Source of the DNA: Nocardioides sp. cx-173
GTDB taxonomy: Bacteria; Actinomycetota; Actinomycetes; Propionibacteriales; Nocardioidaceae
Direction: 5' to 3'
Assembly (NCBI RefSeq): GCF_021117365.1
Contig: NZ_CP088262.1
Span: 1,116,001-1,180,000 of the forward strand
Length of the DNA: 64,000 nucleotides
Below, piece after piece: positions 34,698 through 64,000 of this stretch (its first letter is position 1; each line of letters opens with the position of its first letter). A program made the position numbers and the translations under genes. The notes beneath the pieces are model-generated. The model did no database searches and had not been told where the DNA came from. It worked only from the letters and a program-made list of their open reading frames with translations.

Positions 34698-35276
34698 ATG
34701 GAGATCGCTCCGACGCCCGCGCGACGCCGGCGGAGGTCGCGCGCCCGGGGGTGGCTCCTGCTGGCGGTCCTCGCGCCCGTGACCATGCTGTCGCTGGTCC
34801 CCACGATGCTGGGCCTGCAGCGCTACGTGGTCGCCCAGGACTCCATGTCCGGCGGCATCTCGCGCGGATCCGTGGTGCTCGAGCGCGTGGTTCCGGTCAG
34901 CGACCTGGAGGTCGGCGACGTCATCACCTACCGACCGCCCCCCACCGCGGACGAGAAGGGTCTCGTGACCCACCGGATCGTCCACATCGACGGCTCCCAC
35001 CTGCGGACCAAGGGCGACGCCCTCGAGGAGCCCGACCCCTGGCTCGTGCCGGTCGAGAACGCGTCGCTGCCGCACGTCGTGCTCGCGATCCCGTTCGTCG
35101 GCTACCCGTTCGTCGGCACCGTCGCGAGGGAGACCTGGCTGGCCGTGCTGCTCGCGCCGACGAGCGTCCTCGCCCTGCTCGCGCTCCGCGGCGCCTGGCG
35201 GCACCGCCGCGCCGACCCCGCTCCGTCCCCCGGCATTCTTCAGTCCCGGGGACCAACAGCCACTCAGCCCCTATGA
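34698..35276 (+). CDS. SipW-type (S26B) signal peptidase
   Basis: Membrane peptidase of 192 aa. Basic N-terminus, transmembrane segment about 18-42, then QDSMSGGISRGSVVL with the nucleophile Ser49, LEVGDVITY, and VTHRIVHI with His92 where ordinary bacterial leader peptidases have Lys: the Ser-His S26B type of archaea, the ER and SipW. RTKGDALEEPD is the late GD motif. A second hydrophobic segment lies near the C-terminus. ATG at 34698 follows GGGAGG with 5 bases. No obvious substrate gene is adjacent; a second S26B peptidase is at 55.5 kb. Confidence 0.8.
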   Translation: MEIAPTPARRRRRSRARGWLLLAVLAPVTMLSLVPTMLGLQRYVVAQDSMSGGISRGSVVLERVVPVSDLEVGDVITYRPPPTADEKGLVTHRIVHIDGSHLRTKGDALEEPDPWLVPVENASLPHVVLAIPFVGYPFVGTVARETWLAVLLAPTSVLALLALRGAWRHRRADPAPSPGILQSRGPTATQPL

Positions 35277-35285: not shown

Positions 35286-35975
35286 GTGGCCCACCGAGTG
35301 CTTGTCGTCGAGGACGAGGAGGACATCGCCATCCCCCTGGTCCGCACGCTGGAGCGCGAGGGATACGACGTCCTGTGGGTCGACAGCGGGCAGAAGGCGC
35401 TCGATGAGCTGCACTCGCGCCCGGCCGACGTGGTCATCTTGGACCTCGGGCTGCCCGACATGGACGGCCTCGAGGTCTGCCGCGCCGCCCGCGATGGCGG
35501 CTACACGGGAGCGATCATGATCGTGACCGCGCGAGCCGGCGAGCTCGACCGGGTCGTCGGGCTCGACTACGGCGCCGACGACTACCTCGCCAAGCCGTTC
35601 GGCCTGGCCGAGCTGCAGGCCCGGGTCCGGGCACTGATCCGTCGCACGGCGGGCGCCACCGGCGACCCCGCCGACGAGGGCGGGCTGCGCATCGACGTCG
35701 CGGCCCGGCGGGTCTACGCCGGCGACGACGAGGTGCCGCTCACCGGCAAGGAGTTCGACGTCCTGAGCATCCTGGCCGCGCACCGCGACAAGGTGGTCTC
35801 GCGCGGGAGGCTCATGGCCGACGTGTGGGACGAGAACTGGTACGGCTCGACCAAGACGCTCGACGTGACGATCGGGCGGCTTCGCCAGAAGCTCGAGGGC
35901 GTCGGGGTCTCGGAGCGGGTGGTCGCTGTTCGGGGCGTGGGTTTCCGCCTCGAGGGCAGCACCCCCGATGCGTAG
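35286..35975 (+). CDS. OmpR/PhoB-family response regulator
   Basis: Two-domain regulator of 229 aa. Receiver: VVEDEEDIA acidic pocket, phospho-acceptor Asp in VILDLGLPDMDG (about residue 52), VTARAG switch Thr, and YLAKPF Lys. Output: winged helix with LTGKEFDVLSILAAH and TLDVTIGRLRQKLE. The receiver is fully intact. GTG start fits the -10 just upstream. The adjacent histidine kinase overlaps by 8 bases but appears degenerate, so phosphate may come from another source. Confidence 0.93.
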   Translation: MAHRVLVVEDEEDIAIPLVRTLEREGYDVLWVDSGQKALDELHSRPADVVILDLGLPDMDGLEVCRAARDGGYTGAIMIVTARAGELDRVVGLDYGADDYLAKPFGLAELQARVRALIRRTAGATGDPADEGGLRIDVAARRVYAGDDEVPLTGKEFDVLSILAAHRDKVVSRGRLMADVWDENWYGSTKTLDVTIGRLRQKLEGVGVSERVVAVRGVGFRLEGSTPDA

Positions 35976-37158
35976 GCGACTGACCCTCGCGTTCCTGCTC
36001 GTCACCCTGTCGATGATCCTGCTCGCGGGGATCGTGCGCGCGGTCACGCTGGACGGCATGCTGCGCGAGCGCGAGGGCGAGCACCTCTTCCGCGAGGCCA
36101 CCACCCTCGCGTCGGTCATCGAGGCCAACGACGAGCTCGCGCGCCCGGTCGACCGAGCGTTCCTGGAGGACTTCGTCGGTCCGGACACCGAGATCGTCTA
36201 CGCCCCGGCCGACGGACCGAGGGCCGTGGTCACCGGGCCGGACTTCCGCGACGGGGACGACGGCATCACGTCCACGATCAGCCTCGACGGCGGCAAGGTC
36301 ACCGTGCGCCAGTCGGCCGGGGCCATCCAGAACCTCTGGGGACGCGACTCGTGGTCGGTCGTCGCGCTCTTCGCCGTCACCGGGCTTGGCTCGGCGCTGA
36401 TCGGGTTCGTCATCTCCGGCTCGCTCGCCGCGCCGTTCCAGAAGCTGGCGGTCGCCGCCAGCGCCCTCGGCCGTGGCCGCTTCGACCTCGACCTGCCGCC
36501 CAGCCGGGTGCCCGAGGCCCGGGCGATCACCGAGGCACTGCGCTCCAGCGCGACCGCGCTGCGCGAGCGGCTGACGCGTGAGCAGCAGTTCGCGCTGCAC
36601 GCCTCCCACGTGCTGCGCACCCCGCTCACGACCCTGCGCCTGGAGCTCGAGGAGATGACCCTCGACGAGGACCTGCCGGCCACGGCGCGGGCCGCCGCGC
36701 AGCGCTGCATGACGGCCGTCGACGACGTCACGCTCGTCGCCTCGGACCTCGTCGACCTGTCCCGCCGCGGCCTCATCGGGGGTGCCCAGGTCCCCCTGCG
36801 CGAGCTCGCCACGTCCTGCGCGCAGCACTGGTCCGACGAGCTGGACGAGTACGACCGGCGCCTCACGGCGGCGGTCGAGGGCGACCTCGACCTCACGTTC
36901 ACCCCCGGGCCCGTGGAGCAGGTTCTCGACCTGCTCCTGCGCGACCGCGTCGCCCACGGGCTGGGCGACACCCGGCTGGTCCTCGAGGGCGACCCTCGGG
37001 GTCACCTGCGCCTCCTGGTCCGCGGTGCCCGTCGGCCCGACGCCGACGACGAGCTGCTCGACGAGGCGCGCGCGGTGATCGAGGCCCTGGGTGGGCGCCT
37101 GGAGGCGGTCCGCGGCGAGGGCCACCCCGACCAGGTCGTGCTCCTGCCGCGACGCTGA
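35968..37158 (+). CDS. sensor histidine kinase homologue, apparently degenerate
   Basis: Membrane sensor of 396 aa: TM1 about 5-27, a periplasmic domain of about 95 residues, TM2 about 131-153, a HAMP-like segment, then a DHp helix with HASHVLRTPLTTLRLELE. The phospho-acceptor His214 is present but the following acidic residue, needed for autokinase activity, is Val215. In the ATPase domain the N-box reads LLLRDRVAHG (Asp316 for Asn), and no DxGxG or GxGxG box is visible. It may be a phosphatase, a signal receiver or inactive. Overlaps the regulator gene, so it still belongs to that pair. Confidence 0.8.
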   Translation: MRRRLTLAFLLVTLSMILLAGIVRAVTLDGMLREREGEHLFREATTLASVIEANDELARPVDRAFLEDFVGPDTEIVYAPADGPRAVVTGPDFRDGDDGITSTISLDGGKVTVRQSAGAIQNLWGRDSWSVVALFAVTGLGSALIGFVISGSLAAPFQKLAVAASALGRGRFDLDLPPSRVPEARAITEALRSSATALRERLTREQQFALHASHVLRTPLTTLRLELEEMTLDEDLPATARAAAQRCMTAVDDVTLVASDLVDLSRRGLIGGAQVPLRELATSCAQHWSDELDEYDRRLTAAVEGDLDLTFTPGPVEQVLDLLLRDRVAHGLGDTRLVLEGDPRGHLRLLVRGARRPDADDELLDEARAVIEALGGRLEAVRGEGHPDQVVLLPRR

Positions 37159-55017: not shown

Positions 55018-55467
55018 ATGAGCAAGCAGCTCGTGCTGGCACTCGCAGCCGGCACTACCGCATTCGCCGCCGTCGTGGGGTCGGCAGCGACCCTCGGAGG
55101 CATCACCTCCGACGACCTCGGCGCAGACACCTCCGTCGTCGCCAGCTGCGACACCGACGGCATCGCCGTCAAGTACGGGACCACCTACGCCGACATGACC
55201 GGCGTCTACGAGGTCGACACGGTCACCCTCACGGGGATCGACGAAGACTGTGCGGGGCAGTCCGTCGCCGTGACCCTCGGTGGCACGATCGGCACCACCA
55301 AGCCGACGCTGGACGACGGCTCGGCGACGCTCCCTGACGCTGCCGGCCTGGCGACCGCGGGCTACAAGCACGTGGTCACCTTCCCCACAAGTGTGGCGGG
55401 GCCGCCGGCGGTGGATGGTGTGGACGCCGAGGCCGTCGAGCACATCGCCGTCGTGATCAGCGGCTGA
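55018..55467 (+). CDS. small secreted protein, predicted substrate of the SipW-like peptidase
   Basis: Protein of 149 aa with an N-terminal hydrophobic segment LVLALAAGTTAFAAVVGSAATLGG, then ITSDDLGADTSV. The motif AATLGGxxxDDL recurs after the second hydrophobic segment of the adjacent peptidase (AATLGGLLADDL), suggesting a shared cleavage or recognition site, as for TasA/camelysin-type alternative signals. The mature part is acidic with two Cys (about 44 and 78), likely one disulfide, and Thr/Val-rich beta structure. GGGGAG lies 11 bases before the ATG. Role unknown; a surface or fibre protein is possible. Confidence 0.65.
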   Translation: MSKQLVLALAAGTTAFAAVVGSAATLGGITSDDLGADTSVVASCDTDGIAVKYGTTYADMTGVYEVDTVTLTGIDEDCAGQSVAVTLGGTIGTTKPTLDDGSATLPDAAGLATAGYKHVVTFPTSVAGPPAVDGVDAEAVEHIAVVISG

Positions 55468-55531
55468 CCGAGAACTGACGATGTCCTGCTCAGCCCGCCC
55501 CTGAGGGCGGGCTGACAGGCACGCCACGACC

Positions 55532-58081
55532 ATGAGCCCCGAGGTGATCATCGTCCGGCGGCGGGGCCGGCGCTGGTGGCGCCGGGCCCGCCGCCTGGTC
55601 GGCGTGCTCGCCTGGCTGCTCACGCTCGGGCTGGTCTACCTCGCGCTGCCCGCCCCGTTCGGGGCGAAGCTCGGCCTGACGGTGGTGTCGGGCAACTCGA
55701 TGCTGCCGACCTACGAGACCGGCGACGCGGTCGTCACCTGGCGCACCGGCGACTACGAGGTCGGGGAGCCCATCGTCTACGCGGTCCCGGACGGCGAGGT
55801 CGGCGCCGGGGTCTTCGTCGTGCATCGGGTCGTCGACATCGAGGGCGACGCCTACGTCACTCGCGGGGACAACAACGACGGCGACGATAAGTGGCGGCCC
55901 ACCGACCGCAACGTGCAGGGCGCGGTCGTCGCCCGGGTGCCGTACGGCGCGTTCCTGCTGAGGTGGGTGACCTCGCCGCTGTCGATGGCGGCGGCCTGCG
56001 GCATGTTCACGATGTTCGCGGTCCTGACCTCCGGGCGCGGTGGCGGCCGGCGACGCGGACCGCCCGGTGGCTCCGGGGGGCTGCCGGGCCGGCGCCGGGC
56101 GGTGCCGCACCGGCCGGTCCGCCAGCACGTGCTCACCTCCCGCACCGGTGCGGTCGCCATCGCCGGCGTCGTCGCGCTCGTGGTGGCCCCGGTGGGGACC
56201 GCTGCCACCCTGGGCGGGCTGCTGGCCGACGACCTGTACTCCACGGCACGGGCCGCGGCCTTGTCGGGCAACCCGGTCGAGGTCGTCCAGGTCATCGACT
56301 CCGACGACCCGGGGGAGTACTGCGCCACGGTCACGGTCACGAACACGTCCACGGAGTCGGTCACCTGGGGTACCACCGTGGACGTAGCGGCGCAGGGGGG
56401 CACGTCGATCGCGTCGTCGTCCGGGGTCGTCACCGTCTCCTTCACGCCGACGGCGTGGAAGGTGAAGGGGGAGCCGGGCAACGCGGTGCTGGCCCCGGGC
56501 GCGTCGACCGAGTTCGAGTACTGCGCCGCGCGGGGGGTCCCCGGCCTGACCCCGGGGACCTTCTCGCTCGTGGTCGAGGCCCAGGCCAGCCAGTACTGCG
56601 TCACCGCGACCGTCTCGAGCACGTCGGCGGAGTGGGTCCGGTGGAGCGCGACGATCACGCGTGCGACTCCCGGGCTCTCGGCTCCCGCCTACTGGCTCGC
56701 TGCCCCTCCGACGAGCAGCTGGGGGGCGACCACGGTCGACTTCGACCCGAGCACGGGCGCCTGGCTGGTCCGCGGCCCGGACGACGACAACGGCTTCGTC
56801 CGGGCGGGGAGCAGCCGGACGTTCGGCTGGTGCGCGCCCTACAACGGCTCGGCGACCCCGGGGCAGACCACGTCGTCGATGGCGGTCAGCTTCGGCCAGC
56901 AGCAGTACTGCGTGCAGGTCACCGTCACGACGACGGCCGCCGACTGGGTCCGGTGGCAGACGACGATCTCGCACACGACCCCCGGCCTGACCTCCCAGGC
57001 CTACTGGCTCGCGGCCGCACCCTCGCCCAGCAACGCGCAGACGGCGTCGTTCGACGCCACCACCGGCACGTGGGTGGTCGAGGGGATCGCCGGCAACAAC
57101 GCCGTGGTCAAGGCCGGCAGTCCCGCGACGTGGAGCTACTGCGCGCCGACGGCGGCGCCCGACGTGGCCGCCGCGACGGCGACGGCGACGGTGACCAGCT
57201 TCGGCGGCACGACGTACTGCGCCGACGTGACGGTCTCGACCACGGCGACCGACTGGGTCCGGTGGCAGGCGACCATCGACCACACGACCCCCGGACTCAC
57301 CGCCACGCCGTACCGGCTCGCGGCGGCCGGGTCGCCGAGCAACGCGAGCACCGTCTCCTTCAATGCCGGGGTGTGGGTCCTGCGAGGCGTGAGCCACAAC
57401 GCCTACATCACGGCCGGCAGCCCGCAGACGTGGAGCTTCTGCGCACCGCTCTCCCAGGCGGTCCTCACCGAGGCGACGTCCGCGGTGACGGTCACGAGCA
57501 CCGGCAACGGGCAGTTCTGCGCCAACGTCACGGTCTCGACGGCCTCCTCCGACTGGATCGCGTGGAAGAGCACGATCAGCCGCACCACCCCGGGCGTGAG
57601 CGCTGCCGGCTACTGGCTGACCGCGGTCCCCACGACGCTGACCAACGTGGCGTCGCACGACTTCGCGGCGCCGACCGGGACCTGGGTGGCCAAGGGGGTC
57701 ACGCACAACGCCTACATCAAGGCCGGCTCCCCGGTGACCTGGACCTACTGCGCCCCGCTCCAGACCGGTGGCAGCGCGCTGGTCGACGCCACGGTGAGCG
57801 CCGTCGTGGACAACGCGTGGAACACCAACAGCTACTGCGCCACGGTGACCGTCACGACCACCTCGCCGACACTCGTGCCCTGGCGAGCGAAGATCGACCA
57901 CAGCACACCCGGGCTGACGGCCACGAACCGTTGGCTCACCGCCCAGCCGACGAACCTCTGGAACGCCCAGTCCCAGTCGTTCCACGCACCCACGGGAGTG
58001 TGGGTCCTGGTGGGGGCGAGCCACAACGCCACCGTCTCGGCGAGCTCGCCCACCACCTTCGGCTTCTGCACGCCCTACTGA
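55532..58081 (+). CDS. SipW-like signal peptidase fused to six Cys-paired extracellular repeats
   Basis: 849 aa. Part 1 (about 1-165): an S26B peptidase with TM 22-42, nucleophile Ser56 in SGNSMLPTYETGDAV, His98 in VVHRVVDI, RGDNN at 111-115 and a second TM 145-165. Part 2 (about 166-235): basic Gly/Arg linker, a third hydrophobic segment (205-228) and AATLGGLLADDL, which repeats the signal of the neighbouring small protein. Part 3 (about 260-849): six repeats of 92-106 residues, each with YC or FC at both ends (Cys 264/331, 356/434, 460/537, 563/637, 663/740, 769/846), core WVRWQTTIxHTTPGLT, YWLAA, GTWVVxG and SPxTWSYCAP. The repeats resemble small beta-sandwich binding modules; the family is not identified. 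Protease and its likely substrate thus share one chain. Confidence 0.85.
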   Translation: MSPEVIIVRRRGRRWWRRARRLVGVLAWLLTLGLVYLALPAPFGAKLGLTVVSGNSMLPTYETGDAVVTWRTGDYEVGEPIVYAVPDGEVGAGVFVVHRVVDIEGDAYVTRGDNNDGDDKWRPTDRNVQGAVVARVPYGAFLLRWVTSPLSMAAACGMFTMFAVLTSGRGGGRRRGPPGGSGGLPGRRRAVPHRPVRQHVLTSRTGAVAIAGVVALVVAPVGTAATLGGLLADDLYSTARAAALSGNPVEVVQVIDSDDPGEYCATVTVTNTSTESVTWGTTVDVAAQGGTSIASSSGVVTVSFTPTAWKVKGEPGNAVLAPGASTEFEYCAARGVPGLTPGTFSLVVEAQASQYCVTATVSSTSAEWVRWSATITRATPGLSAPAYWLAAPPTSSWGATTVDFDPSTGAWLVRGPDDDNGFVRAGSSRTFGWCAPYNGSATPGQTTSSMAVSFGQQQYCVQVTVTTTAADWVRWQTTISHTTPGLTSQAYWLAAAPSPSNAQTASFDATTGTWVVEGIAGNNAVVKAGSPATWSYCAPTAAPDVAAATATATVTSFGGTTYCADVTVSTTATDWVRWQATIDHTTPGLTATPYRLAAAGSPSNASTVSFNAGVWVLRGVSHNAYITAGSPQTWSFCAPLSQAVLTEATSAVTVTSTGNGQFCANVTVSTASSDWIAWKSTISRTTPGVSAAGYWLTAVPTTLTNVASHDFAAPTGTWVAKGVTHNAYIKAGSPVTWTYCAPLQTGGSALVDATVSAVVDNAWNTNSYCATVTVTTTSPTLVPWRAKIDHSTPGLTATNRWLTAQPTNLWNAQSQSFHAPTGVWVLVGASHNATVSASSPTTFGFCTPY

Positions 58082-58084
58082 CGC

Positions 58085-60637
<2,553 letters not shown>

Positions 60638-60804
60638 GTCGTTCATCATGTCACCGGAGCCGGCGTCCACGGGTGCTGGCCTCGTGTGGGACCCGGTGCT
60701 GGTGCGGTGCGGGCCCCGCTCCCGGCCCGTCCACAGTGTGGGACAGTTGGGGCTGGCGTGAGCGGTGGGATGCGAGTTACAGATGTGAAATTCTCGCCGA
60801 CACG

Positions 60805-60834
60805 CTGACAAGGTGCTTGACACGTGCGTAATCT
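60805..60834 (+). promoter_or_regulatory. promoter for a leaderless CHAP-protein transcript
   Basis: CTGACA (60805-60810) and TAATCT (60829-60834) are separated by 18 bases, and GTG at 60842 is 7 bases after the -10. No Shine-Dalgarno is present. A TTGACA at 60818 lies inside the spacer and may be an alternative -35 without a matching -10. The spacing favours a start at 60842 over GTG 60824. Confidence 0.5.
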
Positions 60835-60841
60835 CCGCTGC

Positions 60842-62524
60842 GTGACTCGGACCCGTCGGCTGCGCCGTGCCTGGGCGCTGGGGGCCCTGCTGGCATTGCT
60901 GGCGCCCCTCGGCGCGGCTCCTGCGACCGCCGACAACGACGGCGACAAGGACCGACTGCCCGCCCCGTCGCTGACCCGCTACGGGGCCGTCGAGCAGCGG
61001 GCGAGCGCCTACCTCTGCACCGGCTACGCGGCGTGTGCCGAGGCCGGCTACCCCCACGCCGGCTACCGCGCGGTCGCCGGCCAGATGTTCTGGCGGATGT
61101 ACAGCGGGCACAACTGCACCAACTACGCGGCGTACCGGATGGTGAAGAGCGGCCTGCCCAACACGCGCCCGTGGTCCGGCGGCGGCAACGCCAGCGAGTG
61201 GGGCCTGAAGATGTCCAAGATCACCGACACGACGCCCGTCGTCGGCTCGGTGGCCTGGTGGCGCGCCAACGCGCCCGGCACCGGCTCGAGCGGCCACGTG
61301 GCCTACGTCGAGCAGGTGGTCTCCAGCACCGAGATCGTCATCAGCGAGGACAGCTGGGGAGGCGACTTCCACTGGCGAAGGCTGAAGAAGGCCGACGGCC
61401 GCTGGCCTTCGGGGTTCATCCACTTCAACGACAAGGTGCTCACCAACGTCGCGCGCCCGGCGGTCACCGGCACCCCCAAGGTCGGGGTGCCCCTCGCGGC
61501 GTCCGCGGGCACCTGGAAGCCCGCGGGCAGCTACCACTTCCAGTGGTACGCCCACGGGGTCGCGATCCCGGGTGCCACGGCCACCAGGTTCGTGCCCACC
61601 GCCCGGCAGCTGGACCGCAAGATCTCGGTCAAGGTCACGGCCACGAGGGCCGGCTACCCGGCGACGACGGTCGGATCGAACGTGATCGCGGCCAAGGTGG
61701 CGCCCGGCGACCTGCAGAACCCCCAGCCGCCGGTGATCAACGGTGTCCCCGAGGTCGACCAGGTCCTCACCGCGACCCGCGGCTCCTGGGCGCCCAACCC
61801 GAGCGCGACCACCGTCCAGTGGTACGCCGGTCCGACGCCCATCGCGGGAGCCACCGGATGGCGGCTCCGGCTGGGTCAGGCGCAGATCGACCAGCCGGTC
61901 ACCGCCGTGGTCACCGCCACGGCGCCCGGCTACGTCCAGAAGCGCGTGCAGGCGCAACCCACGCCCGCGATCCTGGCAGGCACCATGGAGTTCACCCGTC
62001 CGTTCGGCGTGAGCGGGGTGACCCGTGCCGGCCGGACCCTCTCCGTCACGCCCGGCACCTTCTCTCCTGCGGACGCCGCCGTCAGCTACTCCTGGCGCCG
62101 TGACGGGGTGACGATCCCCGGCGCCGTCGGCTCGACGTACGTGCTGCAGCCCGCGGACGTCGGGGCCCGGATATCGGCCGTCGTACGGCTCGACCGCGCC
62201 AGCTACCGCAGCGCCGCCCACGAGATCCGGACGCCGACCCGGGTGTTCGCCCCGTCGTCCGTGGGCGTCCGGCCGACCGGAGCGGTGGGCAAGGCCGTCG
62301 TGGTCGTGCGGGTGACCGCGCCGGGCGTCGACGACCTCGGGGGCTGGGCCACGGTCCGGATCGGCGCCAAGAAGGTGGTCGGCAAGCTGGTCGACGGGCG
62401 CGTGCGCGTGGTCGTCCGCGGCCTGGTGCCCGGCTGGAAGAAGGTCCGGGTGCGGTACGGCGGTCAGCGCTTCGCCCTGCCCGCCGCGGGCGCCGACCGG
62501 GTCTACGTCAACCGCGCCTGGTAG
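60842..62524 (+). CDS. secreted CHAP-domain peptidoglycan hydrolase-like protein
   Basis: 560 aa. Signal peptide of about 30 residues ending ATA before DNDGD. A CHAP amidase/endopeptidase domain follows (about 55-195): Cys92 in HNCTNYAAYRM, His152 in SSGHVAYVEQV and an acidic ISEDSW near 168-171. After it come about three repeats of an Ig-like type, each with GTPKVGVPL or related GVPEVDQVL / GVTRAGRTL, a QWY/SWRRDG strand and a closing segment, then a beta-rich tail. Likely cleaves cell-wall peptide bridges or amide bonds. Start chosen for the leaderless promoter. Confidence 0.85.
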   Translation: MTRTRRLRRAWALGALLALLAPLGAAPATADNDGDKDRLPAPSLTRYGAVEQRASAYLCTGYAACAEAGYPHAGYRAVAGQMFWRMYSGHNCTNYAAYRMVKSGLPNTRPWSGGGNASEWGLKMSKITDTTPVVGSVAWWRANAPGTGSSGHVAYVEQVVSSTEIVISEDSWGGDFHWRRLKKADGRWPSGFIHFNDKVLTNVARPAVTGTPKVGVPLAASAGTWKPAGSYHFQWYAHGVAIPGATATRFVPTARQLDRKISVKVTATRAGYPATTVGSNVIAAKVAPGDLQNPQPPVINGVPEVDQVLTATRGSWAPNPSATTVQWYAGPTPIAGATGWRLRLGQAQIDQPVTAVVTATAPGYVQKRVQAQPTPAILAGTMEFTRPFGVSGVTRAGRTLSVTPGTFSPADAAVSYSWRRDGVTIPGAVGSTYVLQPADVGARISAVVRLDRASYRSAAHEIRTPTRVFAPSSVGVRPTGAVGKAVVVVRVTAPGVDDLGGWATVRIGAKKVVGKLVDGRVRVVVRGLVPGWKKVRVRYGGQRFALPAAGADRVYVNRAW

Positions 62525-62576
62525 CGGGGAGCACCCGCTCCGTGCCGGCGTCCCCGGCCGGTGCCAGGCTGGGGCC

Positions 62577-64000
62577 ATGACCCGGGTCTCGCTGTCGCGC
62601 CTGCCGGGGGAGCGCGTGCGCGCGGTCGCCCCGGACGGCCAGGTCGACCTGACGCTGAGCGAGCTGTCGGCGTACGTGCGCGAGCGCGAGCGCGAGTCGC
62701 CGAGATGGGTCTGGGACGACACGGCGCGGTGGTACCCGCCCCTGCTCGCGGCGGGCGTGCGCGTCGGGCGCTGCCACGACCTGCGTCTCGCACATCACCT
62801 GCTGCGCCGGGCGCCCGCGGTCGACGGCCGGCTGCTGGAGGGGGAGGAGTCGCAGCACTGGGACGGGCTGGGGCCCAGCGCGCCCTCGCACCCGGCGCTG
62901 TTCTCGGTCGACGACACCGCCGAGCACCTGCGCGCCGACCTCGAGGACGCCCGCCAGCGCGCCGCCGTCGAGGCCTCCGCCGAGTCCGTCCGGCTCGGGC
63001 TGCTGCTGGCGGCCGAGTCCTCGGGCGCGCTGGCCGCCGCGGAGATGACGTACGCCGGGGTGCCGTGGCGCACCGACGTGCACGAGCGGCTGCTCACCGA
63101 CCTGCTGGGGCCGCGCCCGCCTCGCGGTGCCCGCCCGCTGCTGCTCGAGGCGCTGGCCGGGGAGGTGCGTGCGGCGTTCGACGCGCCGGGCCTGAACCCG
63201 GACTCGCGCCCCGAGCTCCTCGCGGCGCTGCGCCGAGCCGGGCTGGAGACCGACGACACCCGCGCCTCGTCCCTGCGCGCGCTCGAGCACCCGGGCGTCG
63301 CGCCGCTGCTGCGCTACAAGCAGCTCGCGCACCTGTTCTCGACCAACGGATGGAGCTGGATCGACCAGTGGGTGCGGGAGGGGAGGTTCCGGCCGTCGTA
63401 CCAGCCGGCCGGCTCCGCCACGGGGCGCTGGTCGTCCAACGGTGGCGGCGCGCTGTCCATCCCGCTGCAGGTGCGCCCCGCCGCGATCGCCGACGACGGC
63501 TGGGTGCTCGTGGTCGCCGACGTCGCCCAGCTCGAGCCGCGCGTGCTCGCGGGCATGAGCGGCGACCGGGCGCTCGCCCGGTCGGCCCGCGGCGCCGACC
63601 TCTACCAGGGCATGGTCGACGACGGCGCGGTCGCGACCCGGCAGCACGCCAAGCTCGGCCTGCTCGGCGCAATGTACGGCGCCACCAGCGGCGAGAGCGG
63701 CCGCATGGTCGCCGGGCTCACCCGTCGCTACCCCGAGGCCTTCGGGCTGGTCGAGGAGGCCGCCCGCGCCGGCGAGCGGGGCCAGGTGGTCCGCACCCTG
63801 CTCGGTCGCGGCTCACCCGGCCTCGGGGACGCGTGGGAGCGCGACCCCGAAGGCCCGCCGGCCGATCCCGAGAGCCAGGCGCGACGACGCCGTGCGTTCG
63901 GCCGGTTCACCCGCAACTTCGTCGTGCAGGGCACCGGGGCCGAGTGGGCGCTGTGCTGGGTCGCCGACCTGCGCAACCGGCTCTGGCGCCTGGGTGGGAC
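62577..64000 (+). CDS. bifunctional 3'-5' exonuclease/DNA polymerase family A (3' partial)
   Basis: DNA polymerase I-like enzyme, 474 codons seen before the window ends. An N-terminal exonuclease-like region appears inactive or atypical (no clear DxE pair). The polymerase domain has a RYKQLAHLFSTNG thumb segment, SATGRWSSNGGGALSIPLQVR, motif A VVADVAQLEPRVLAGMSGD with Asp315, and motif B RQHAKLGLLGAMYG with Arg355, Lys359 and Tyr367. Motif C lies beyond the window. It resembles a shortened paralogue found in actinobacteria in addition to PolA; role in repair unproven. No stop codon is present in this frame to the window end. Confidence 0.87.
   Translation, partial: MTRVSLSRLPGERVRAVAPDGQVDLTLSELSAYVRERERESPRWVWDDTARWYPPLLAAGVRVGRCHDLRLAHHLLRRAPAVDGRLLEGEESQHWDGLGPSAPSHPALFSVDDTAEHLRADLEDARQRAAVEASAESVRLGLLLAAESSGALAAAEMTYAGVPWRTDVHERLLTDLLGPRPPRGARPLLLEALAGEVRAAFDAPGLNPDSRPELLAALRRAGLETDDTRASSLRALEHPGVAPLLRYKQLAHLFSTNGWSWIDQWVREGRFRPSYQPAGSATGRWSSNGGGALSIPLQVRPAAIADDGWVLVVADVAQLEPRVLAGMSGDRALARSARGADLYQGMVDDGAVATRQHAKLGLLGAMYGATSGESGRMVAGLTRRYPEAFGLVEEAARAGERGQVVRTLLGRGSPGLGDAWERDPEGPPADPESQARRRRAFGRFTRNFVVQGTGAEWALCWVADLRNRLWRLGG

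Follow-up and report, generated by a model that had tools for sequence, protein, structure and literature searches.

In Bacillota, the signal peptidase SipW is described as releasing matrix-protein subunits that are encoded beside it (PMC7395162, PMC13082335). These systems, i.e., SipW-TasA/TapA/CalY and SipW-BsaA, combine an S26B peptidase with an adjoining small exported substrate and serve surface or matrix export. For TasA, another report ties an aromatic residue at P2' to SipW dependence and states that Phe at this position hinders the housekeeping LepB of E. coli (PMC10269814). A similar locus was recognized in Nocardioides sp. cx-173, in a stretch of 64,000 nucleotides (contig NZ_CP088262.1, positions 1,116,001 to 1,180,000), referred to as the window. 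The gene under study, the fusion gene, was located at 55532..58081 of the window on the forward strand and encodes an S26B peptidase next to a gene for a small exported protein, the partner. Unlike in the SipW systems, one predicted substrate is placed inside the peptidase's own chain. The processing-type site of the fusion, A↓ATLGG (arrow, predicted cut), has no aromatic P2' residue, and the cargo is CBM2-derived, not TasA-like.

SipA of Streptococcus pyogenes is alike in having a signal-peptidase fold dedicated to surface-protein assembly. SipA is without catalytic residues and, as far as its abstract goes, without cargo (PMC4049620), whereas the fusion keeps Ser, His and Asp. In open-access titles and abstract openings, no signal peptidase fused to its own substrate was found, which is weak evidence of absence. 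The design of enzyme plus cargo seems to be undescribed so far, and databases are expected to label such proteins only as 'signal peptidase I'.

The original prediction had described a signal peptidase joined in frame to an exported repeat array. This was borne out by the comparison of six family members. The interpretation given with it is supported in part, in that the sequence data support the presence of an S26B peptidase and a predicted substrate within a single polypeptide. It is regarded as probable, with modest confidence, that the protein is a cis-fused SipW-type secretion unit, i.e., the S26B domain would cut its own or a neighbouring chain and set the CBM2-derived array free for adhesion in the wall or matrix.

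The fusion gene and its peptidase domain

The frame is open from its ATG over 849 codons without internal stops, and the third-codon-position G+C was 0.89-0.98 across the measured parts. Five orthologues (L008 and L081-L084) showed 44-71% identity in the best aligned segments. The orthologue of Nocardioides sp. 503 (L008), detected by scanning one genome per species among close relatives, is 860 residues long with 71% identity in its best segment. It has the layout of the window, with a partner gene ahead and a similar neighbour on the reverse strand behind it. By domain, identity to L008 was 86% in the peptidase, 58-61% in the linker and third hydrophobic segment, 52% in the arm ahead of the repeats and 59-83% in the repeats.

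Of 98 genomes sampled from the genus, a repeat profile built from 12 repeats (A1) matched five, own included, and in each of them every match fell within a single frame headed by S26B. Four repeats each were counted in L081-L084, and six each in the window and L008. In the search of related genomes, a check proposed with the original prediction, the fusion was intact in 6/6 members, with Ser/His/Asp kept, and was never split. The conservation in six members shows that it is not a sequencing error. A tblastn search of plasmid records with the fusion gave no match.

The S26B (SipW/ER-type) signal peptidase was assigned to residues 1-166 (55532..56029, forward strand) by TIGR02228, catalytic motifs and a hydropathy scan. 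The catalytic positions are Ser56, His98 and Asp113, the last within RGDNN (111-115), and these residues stand where they had been placed before. The motifs VVSGxSML, xVHRVV and TxGDxN were found in this order in all six members. The NCBIfam model TIGR02228 matched residues 34-152 with 52.8 bits, a narrow pass of the cut-off (51.85), and the orthologue L083 scored 43.3, under the same cut-off. The model of SipW proper (NF046067, a Bacillus equivalog with a cut-off of 190 bits) gave 23.7 bits, so the fusion is not assigned to it. By Pfam, only a sub-threshold S24-like match was found in the peptidase part. Hydrophobic segments were called at about residues 19-45, 150-166 and 206-222, by hydropathy scan rather than by a dedicated predictor. 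By motifs and family score, the N-terminal domain is of S26B type, with predicted proteolytic activity.

The internal processing-type site and the partner gene

The peptidase is followed by a basic linker rich in Gly, Arg and Pro (residues 167-205; 56030..56146, forward strand), which varies in length among the members. By the positive-inside rule, the side of such a basic linker is cytoplasmic. The linker is therefore predicted to be cytoplasmic, and everything that follows would be directed outwards by the third hydrophobic segment, in the manner of a signal peptide. This segment (residues 206-222; 56147..56197, forward strand; mean hydropathy 2.34) was predicted by hydropathy scan as an internal signal sequence. 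It is followed by the processing-type site with a motif shared with the partner, TA↓ATLGGLLADDL (residues 223-235; 56198..56236, forward strand), and by an N-terminal arm of 27 residues ahead of the first repeat (residues 236-262; 56237..56317, forward strand). The second, substrate-like signal segment of the original prediction corresponds to this arrangement. The site reads GTA↓ATLGG, and its predicted first mature residue, A225, falls inside the range of 222-232 that had been expected for the mature N-terminus.

The partner gene (55018..55467, forward strand) encodes an exported protein of 149 residues, with a signal peptide ending GSA↓ATLGGITSDDL. Across the six members, the partners are 133-149 residues long and are encoded directly upstream of the fusion on the same strand, with a gap of about 20-70 nucleotides. 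A signal peptide, two Cys residues conserved in 6/6 and an invariant VISG near or at the C-terminal end were their common features. The partner profile (A3) matched 5/96 genomes, the same five as the fusion. Because the host genomes are related, this co-occurrence indicates a kept cassette and not five independent events.

The 11 residues of each partner past the predicted cut were scored against all 11-mers of the fusion from its own genome. The internal site ranked first in 6/6, so a site common to the fusion and a protein of the neighbouring gene was found in every member. In the window, where 839 11-mers were compared, it scored 43 and the runner-up 19, and the weakest case was L083 (21 against 14). 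This match indicates that the fusion carries a second copy of the processing region of the partner.

The family of the partner was searched in several databases. The six-member partner profile had no match among PDB sequences up to E 10, and the partners of the window and L082 had no match in Pfam or NCBIfam. The partner of L008 gave only a chance-like NCBIfam match. No match to a TasA-type family was seen for the partner or the array.

Between the partner gene and the fusion gene, a hairpin with an 11-bp stem and a 4-nt loop was found at 55490..55515 (forward strand). It is strong without a T-run (z -5.1 in the window and z -4.1 in L008) and shows one compensatory two-sided pair change. The terminator scan called no T-tract terminator at the hairpin. 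Of the four-repeat members, L083 and L084 were folded, and the hairpin was not found in these two (z about 0). It is possibly an attenuator or an RNA processing element and could reduce fusion expression compared with that of the partner. In L081-L084, the membrane-protein-like frame ahead of the partner differs from that in the window and L008, and the two-gene cassette seems to stand in another context there.

Repeat array and CBM2 kinship

By repeat alignment, the rest of the chain was divided into six repeats on the forward strand, i.e., repeat 1 (56318..56593), repeat 2 (56594..56905), repeat 3 (56906..57214), repeat 4 (57215..57514), repeat 5 (57515..57832) and the C-terminal repeat 6 (57833..58078). 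The spans from start to start are 92, 104, 103, 100 and 106 residues, and the final repeat has 82. Six repeats of 92-106 residues had been proposed; the count and the first five lengths agree, and the last repeat is shorter than that range. Past residue 235, exactly 12 Cys residues, i.e., six pairs, are present. Both Cys of the repeat are invariant across 28/28 aligned repeats of the six members, which suggests one disulfide per repeat.

The kinship of the repeats to CBM2 is new relative to the original prediction. The Pfam family CBM_2 (PF00553, gathering score 24) was matched by L082 (26.3), L083 (24.9) and L084 (26.7), in each case with the first repeat, and repeat 1 of the window was annotated as divergent CBM2-like. 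With the fusions of the window and L008, the other two that were scanned whole, no CBM_2 match was found at E up to 1. Single repeats matched CBM_2 at E up to 1 in 11/28 cases (best, 2.2e-7). Repeat 3 was modelled with a predicted local distance difference test score (pLDDT) of 89.9. The top solved folds for the repeat were cellulose- or chitin-binding domains, and the fold agrees with the CBM2 beta-sandwich. A first repeat profile had no significant match among PDB sequences; the viral capsid protein VP8* (E 0.15) ranked first and a CBM2 (E 0.37) second. From sequence and predicted fold, the repeats are divergent relatives of CBM2 with putative carbohydrate binding. The idea that they represent a new fold was rejected by this kinship.

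The family shares fold and sequence kinship with CBM2 as known from the cellulose-binding domain of Cellulomonas fimi and from bacterial chitinases. Unlike in classic CBM2, the domains form a tandem array of 4-6, and the Cys pair, which is terminal in classic CBM2, is placed elsewhere in the repeats. The signal peptidase is the only enzyme domain of the chain, unlike in CBM2 enzymes. The three binding-face positions that hold Trp in CBM2a were occupied by Trp in 3, 7 and 4 of 28 repeats. The complete platform of three tryptophans was found in 0/28, and two of the three are kept in repeat 6 of the window and in the last repeat of L081 or L083.

Among 119 genomes of the phylum, the repeat profile matched two, i.e., the own genome and an LPMO10/CBM2-like frame (L124) in a distant genome (G197; E 3.2e-4), and no further fusion of the repeat family was found. 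In the CBM2 domain of L124, the Cys pair is positioned as in the repeats of the fusion. This frame is possibly an intermediate between classic CBM2 and this repeat family.

Recurrent S26B fusions and proposed secretion in cis

TIGR02228 matches were found in 32/40 sampled genomes of the genus, 27 of them above the cut-off. The fetched loci held 55 distinct S26B frames, a set biased towards long frames, with duplicates represented once and an E limit of 1e-20. In 21 frames, six of the present family and 15 others, a third hydrophobic segment was followed by at least 80 residues. Within the 40-genome sample, these frames stem from 15 genomes, with L049 counted by eye. The frames in L046/L018, L047/L022 and L023, which also look fused by eye, are outside the 21. 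In part of the matches from the 119 phylum genomes, inspection by eye gave four more fusions of four other families (L101, L123, L127 and L128), one of them under the TIGR02228 cut-off. In its predicted domains and segments, the present architecture belongs to a class of S26B fusions that recurs.

The pattern [AGTSV][FWY][TSNG][DSAG], which was composed after the sequences had been seen, occurred close to where the third segment ends in 14/15 of the other fusions, against 523/2254 (23%) equally long ectodomain windows. Among the 14 matches, the one in L034 is off-site and lies behind the real site ARFTS. The script segmented L049 wrongly, and its site AFTSAYWTD was seen by eye. Five siblings were scanned with Pfam, and all passed TIGR02228. 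Laminin_G_3 was identified in L030, L031 and L051 and Big_7 in L042, all over the cut-off, and the scan gave no cargo domain in L039, the sibling of the own genome. These siblings are alike in the S26B domain, the segments, the basic linker, the site and an extracellular domain. They differ in their cargo domains and in the site, which is aromatic and of the A/G/T-F/W-T-D type, and the CBM2 repeat family is absent from them. For the siblings, the aromatic site raises the likelihood of a dedicated S26B cutter. The site of the present family is non-aromatic, so its case rests on the partner match and the kept catalytic residues.

Other S26B loci were also observed. In the L039 locus (C1:2500500-2508000), a stand-alone S26B lies beside the S26B fused to a third segment, with the sequence TLAAWTDSV, and pairs of adjacent S26B matches were seen in several genomes of the genus. 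In the window, a stand-alone S26B over the TIGR02228 cut-off was found at 34700-35276 (forward strand), directly followed by response-regulator-like (35286-35975) and histidine-kinase-like (35968-37158) frames, which were named by eye.

In the proposed cis-fused unit, the N-terminal S26B peptidase would be bound to the membrane, with the active site facing outwards. Past it, the chain would return to the cytoplasm, and the array would be exported by means of the third hydrophobic segment, used as an internal signal peptide. The cut ahead of A225, at a site of the type found in the partner, would be made by the S26B domain, either in its own chain or in that of an adjacent molecule. The peptidase, the linker and the spent signal would stay in the membrane, and six disulfide-closed CBM2-derived modules would be freed and reach the wall or matrix, where they would probably work with the partner in adhesion. 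The layout, the catalytic residues, the conserved fusion, the co-occurring partner, the shared site and the CBM2 kinship are read from the sequences, and the topology, the cleavage, the identity of the cutter, the release and the adhesion are inferred. Two observations weigh against this proposal. The aromatic P2' residue is missing, with A↓ATLGG here and A↓ADLG or A↓APIG in the four-repeat members, if the cut is ahead of the shared motif as this readout assumes. Also, the own genome has six S26B places by TIGR02228, and another S26B could cut. TapA reportedly acts on TasA fibres by strand complementation, as the title of a paper has it (PMC10151520). It is proposed tentatively, as a rather unlikely extension, that the fusions form a one-polypeptide secretion class with the cargo behind an internal SipW-type signal, cut once in cis, with enzyme and cargo at 1:1 and export timed by the enzyme, and that the 11-residue stretch common to cargo and partner has a role besides processing, as a strand that lets the freed array join, cap or start a partner fibre.

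It is conceivable, though somewhat unlikely, that the third segment stays uncut as a membrane anchor, so that the peptidase is held at the cell's own wall polysaccharide by the array, or the repeats are put on display, with the partner as the sole substrate. The segment is hydrophobic enough for this and never leaves the frame, the partner is ready as a separate substrate, and CBM-like modules often tether enzymes. However, in 6/6 the segment is directly followed by small residues and by the 11-residue stretch that matches the partner, and most sibling fusions have a SipW-like A/G-F/W-T-D type site behind it. Such a site would be superfluous in a pure anchor and counts against anchoring. An unlikely course is also that the array is freed by a housekeeping signal peptidase or another S26B, with the fused S26B serving the partner only or as a scaffold. 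The six S26B matches of the genome, including the stand-alone one, and the site without aromatic P2', with ARA↓AD in three members, are consistent with a different cutter. The catalytically dead, signal-peptidase-like SipA reportedly serves pilus assembly in Streptococcus pyogenes (PMC4049620). Against this stands the placement of enzyme and site in a single chain in every member found. The catalytic residues are kept in 6/6, so the S26B domain is not obviously a dead scaffold.

It was judged highly improbable that an internal start between the peptidase and the third segment gives a secreted array, with the fused form as a minor product. Candidate starts lie ahead of the site in 5/6 members, i.e., ATG at codons 209 and 211 (L083), 199 (L082) and 186 (L081), and GTG at 191 and 200 (window) and 207 (L084). 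However, the 52 codons searched before the site in L008 hold no ATG, GTG or TTG, upstream matches to AGGAGG reach at most 4/6, though most gene starts are no better, and the frame is open through the variable-length linker in 6/6. A separate start as a rule was rejected by the case of L008. The last alternative, an assembly error or frameshift that merged two genes, has no supporting point and a negligible probability. It was ruled out by the same fusion in five relatives, and the third-position G+C also speaks against it. The findings named beforehand as refuting the fused product, i.e., orthologues that are always split and a separate start near residue 200, were looked for, and neither was seen.

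The cis-fused unit, if real, points to a class of actinobacterial surface proteins. The design of a peptidase with cargo in one chain has been kept through several species and rebuilt with other cargo (CBM2-like, LamG, immunoglobulin-like), and such a protein would be a self-contained unit of secretion and adhesion. It would offer a natural system for signal peptidase action in cis, with one enzyme, one site and one product.

Behind the fusion gene, a frame at 58085-62722 on the reverse strand ends 4 bases from the stop of the fusion. Its GAMEN and HExxH motifs presumably mark a metallo-aminopeptidase-like protein. At 60824-62524 (forward strand), a secreted protein was recognized by eye, which contains repeats and begins like a Cys/His peptidase (NCTNYAAYR).
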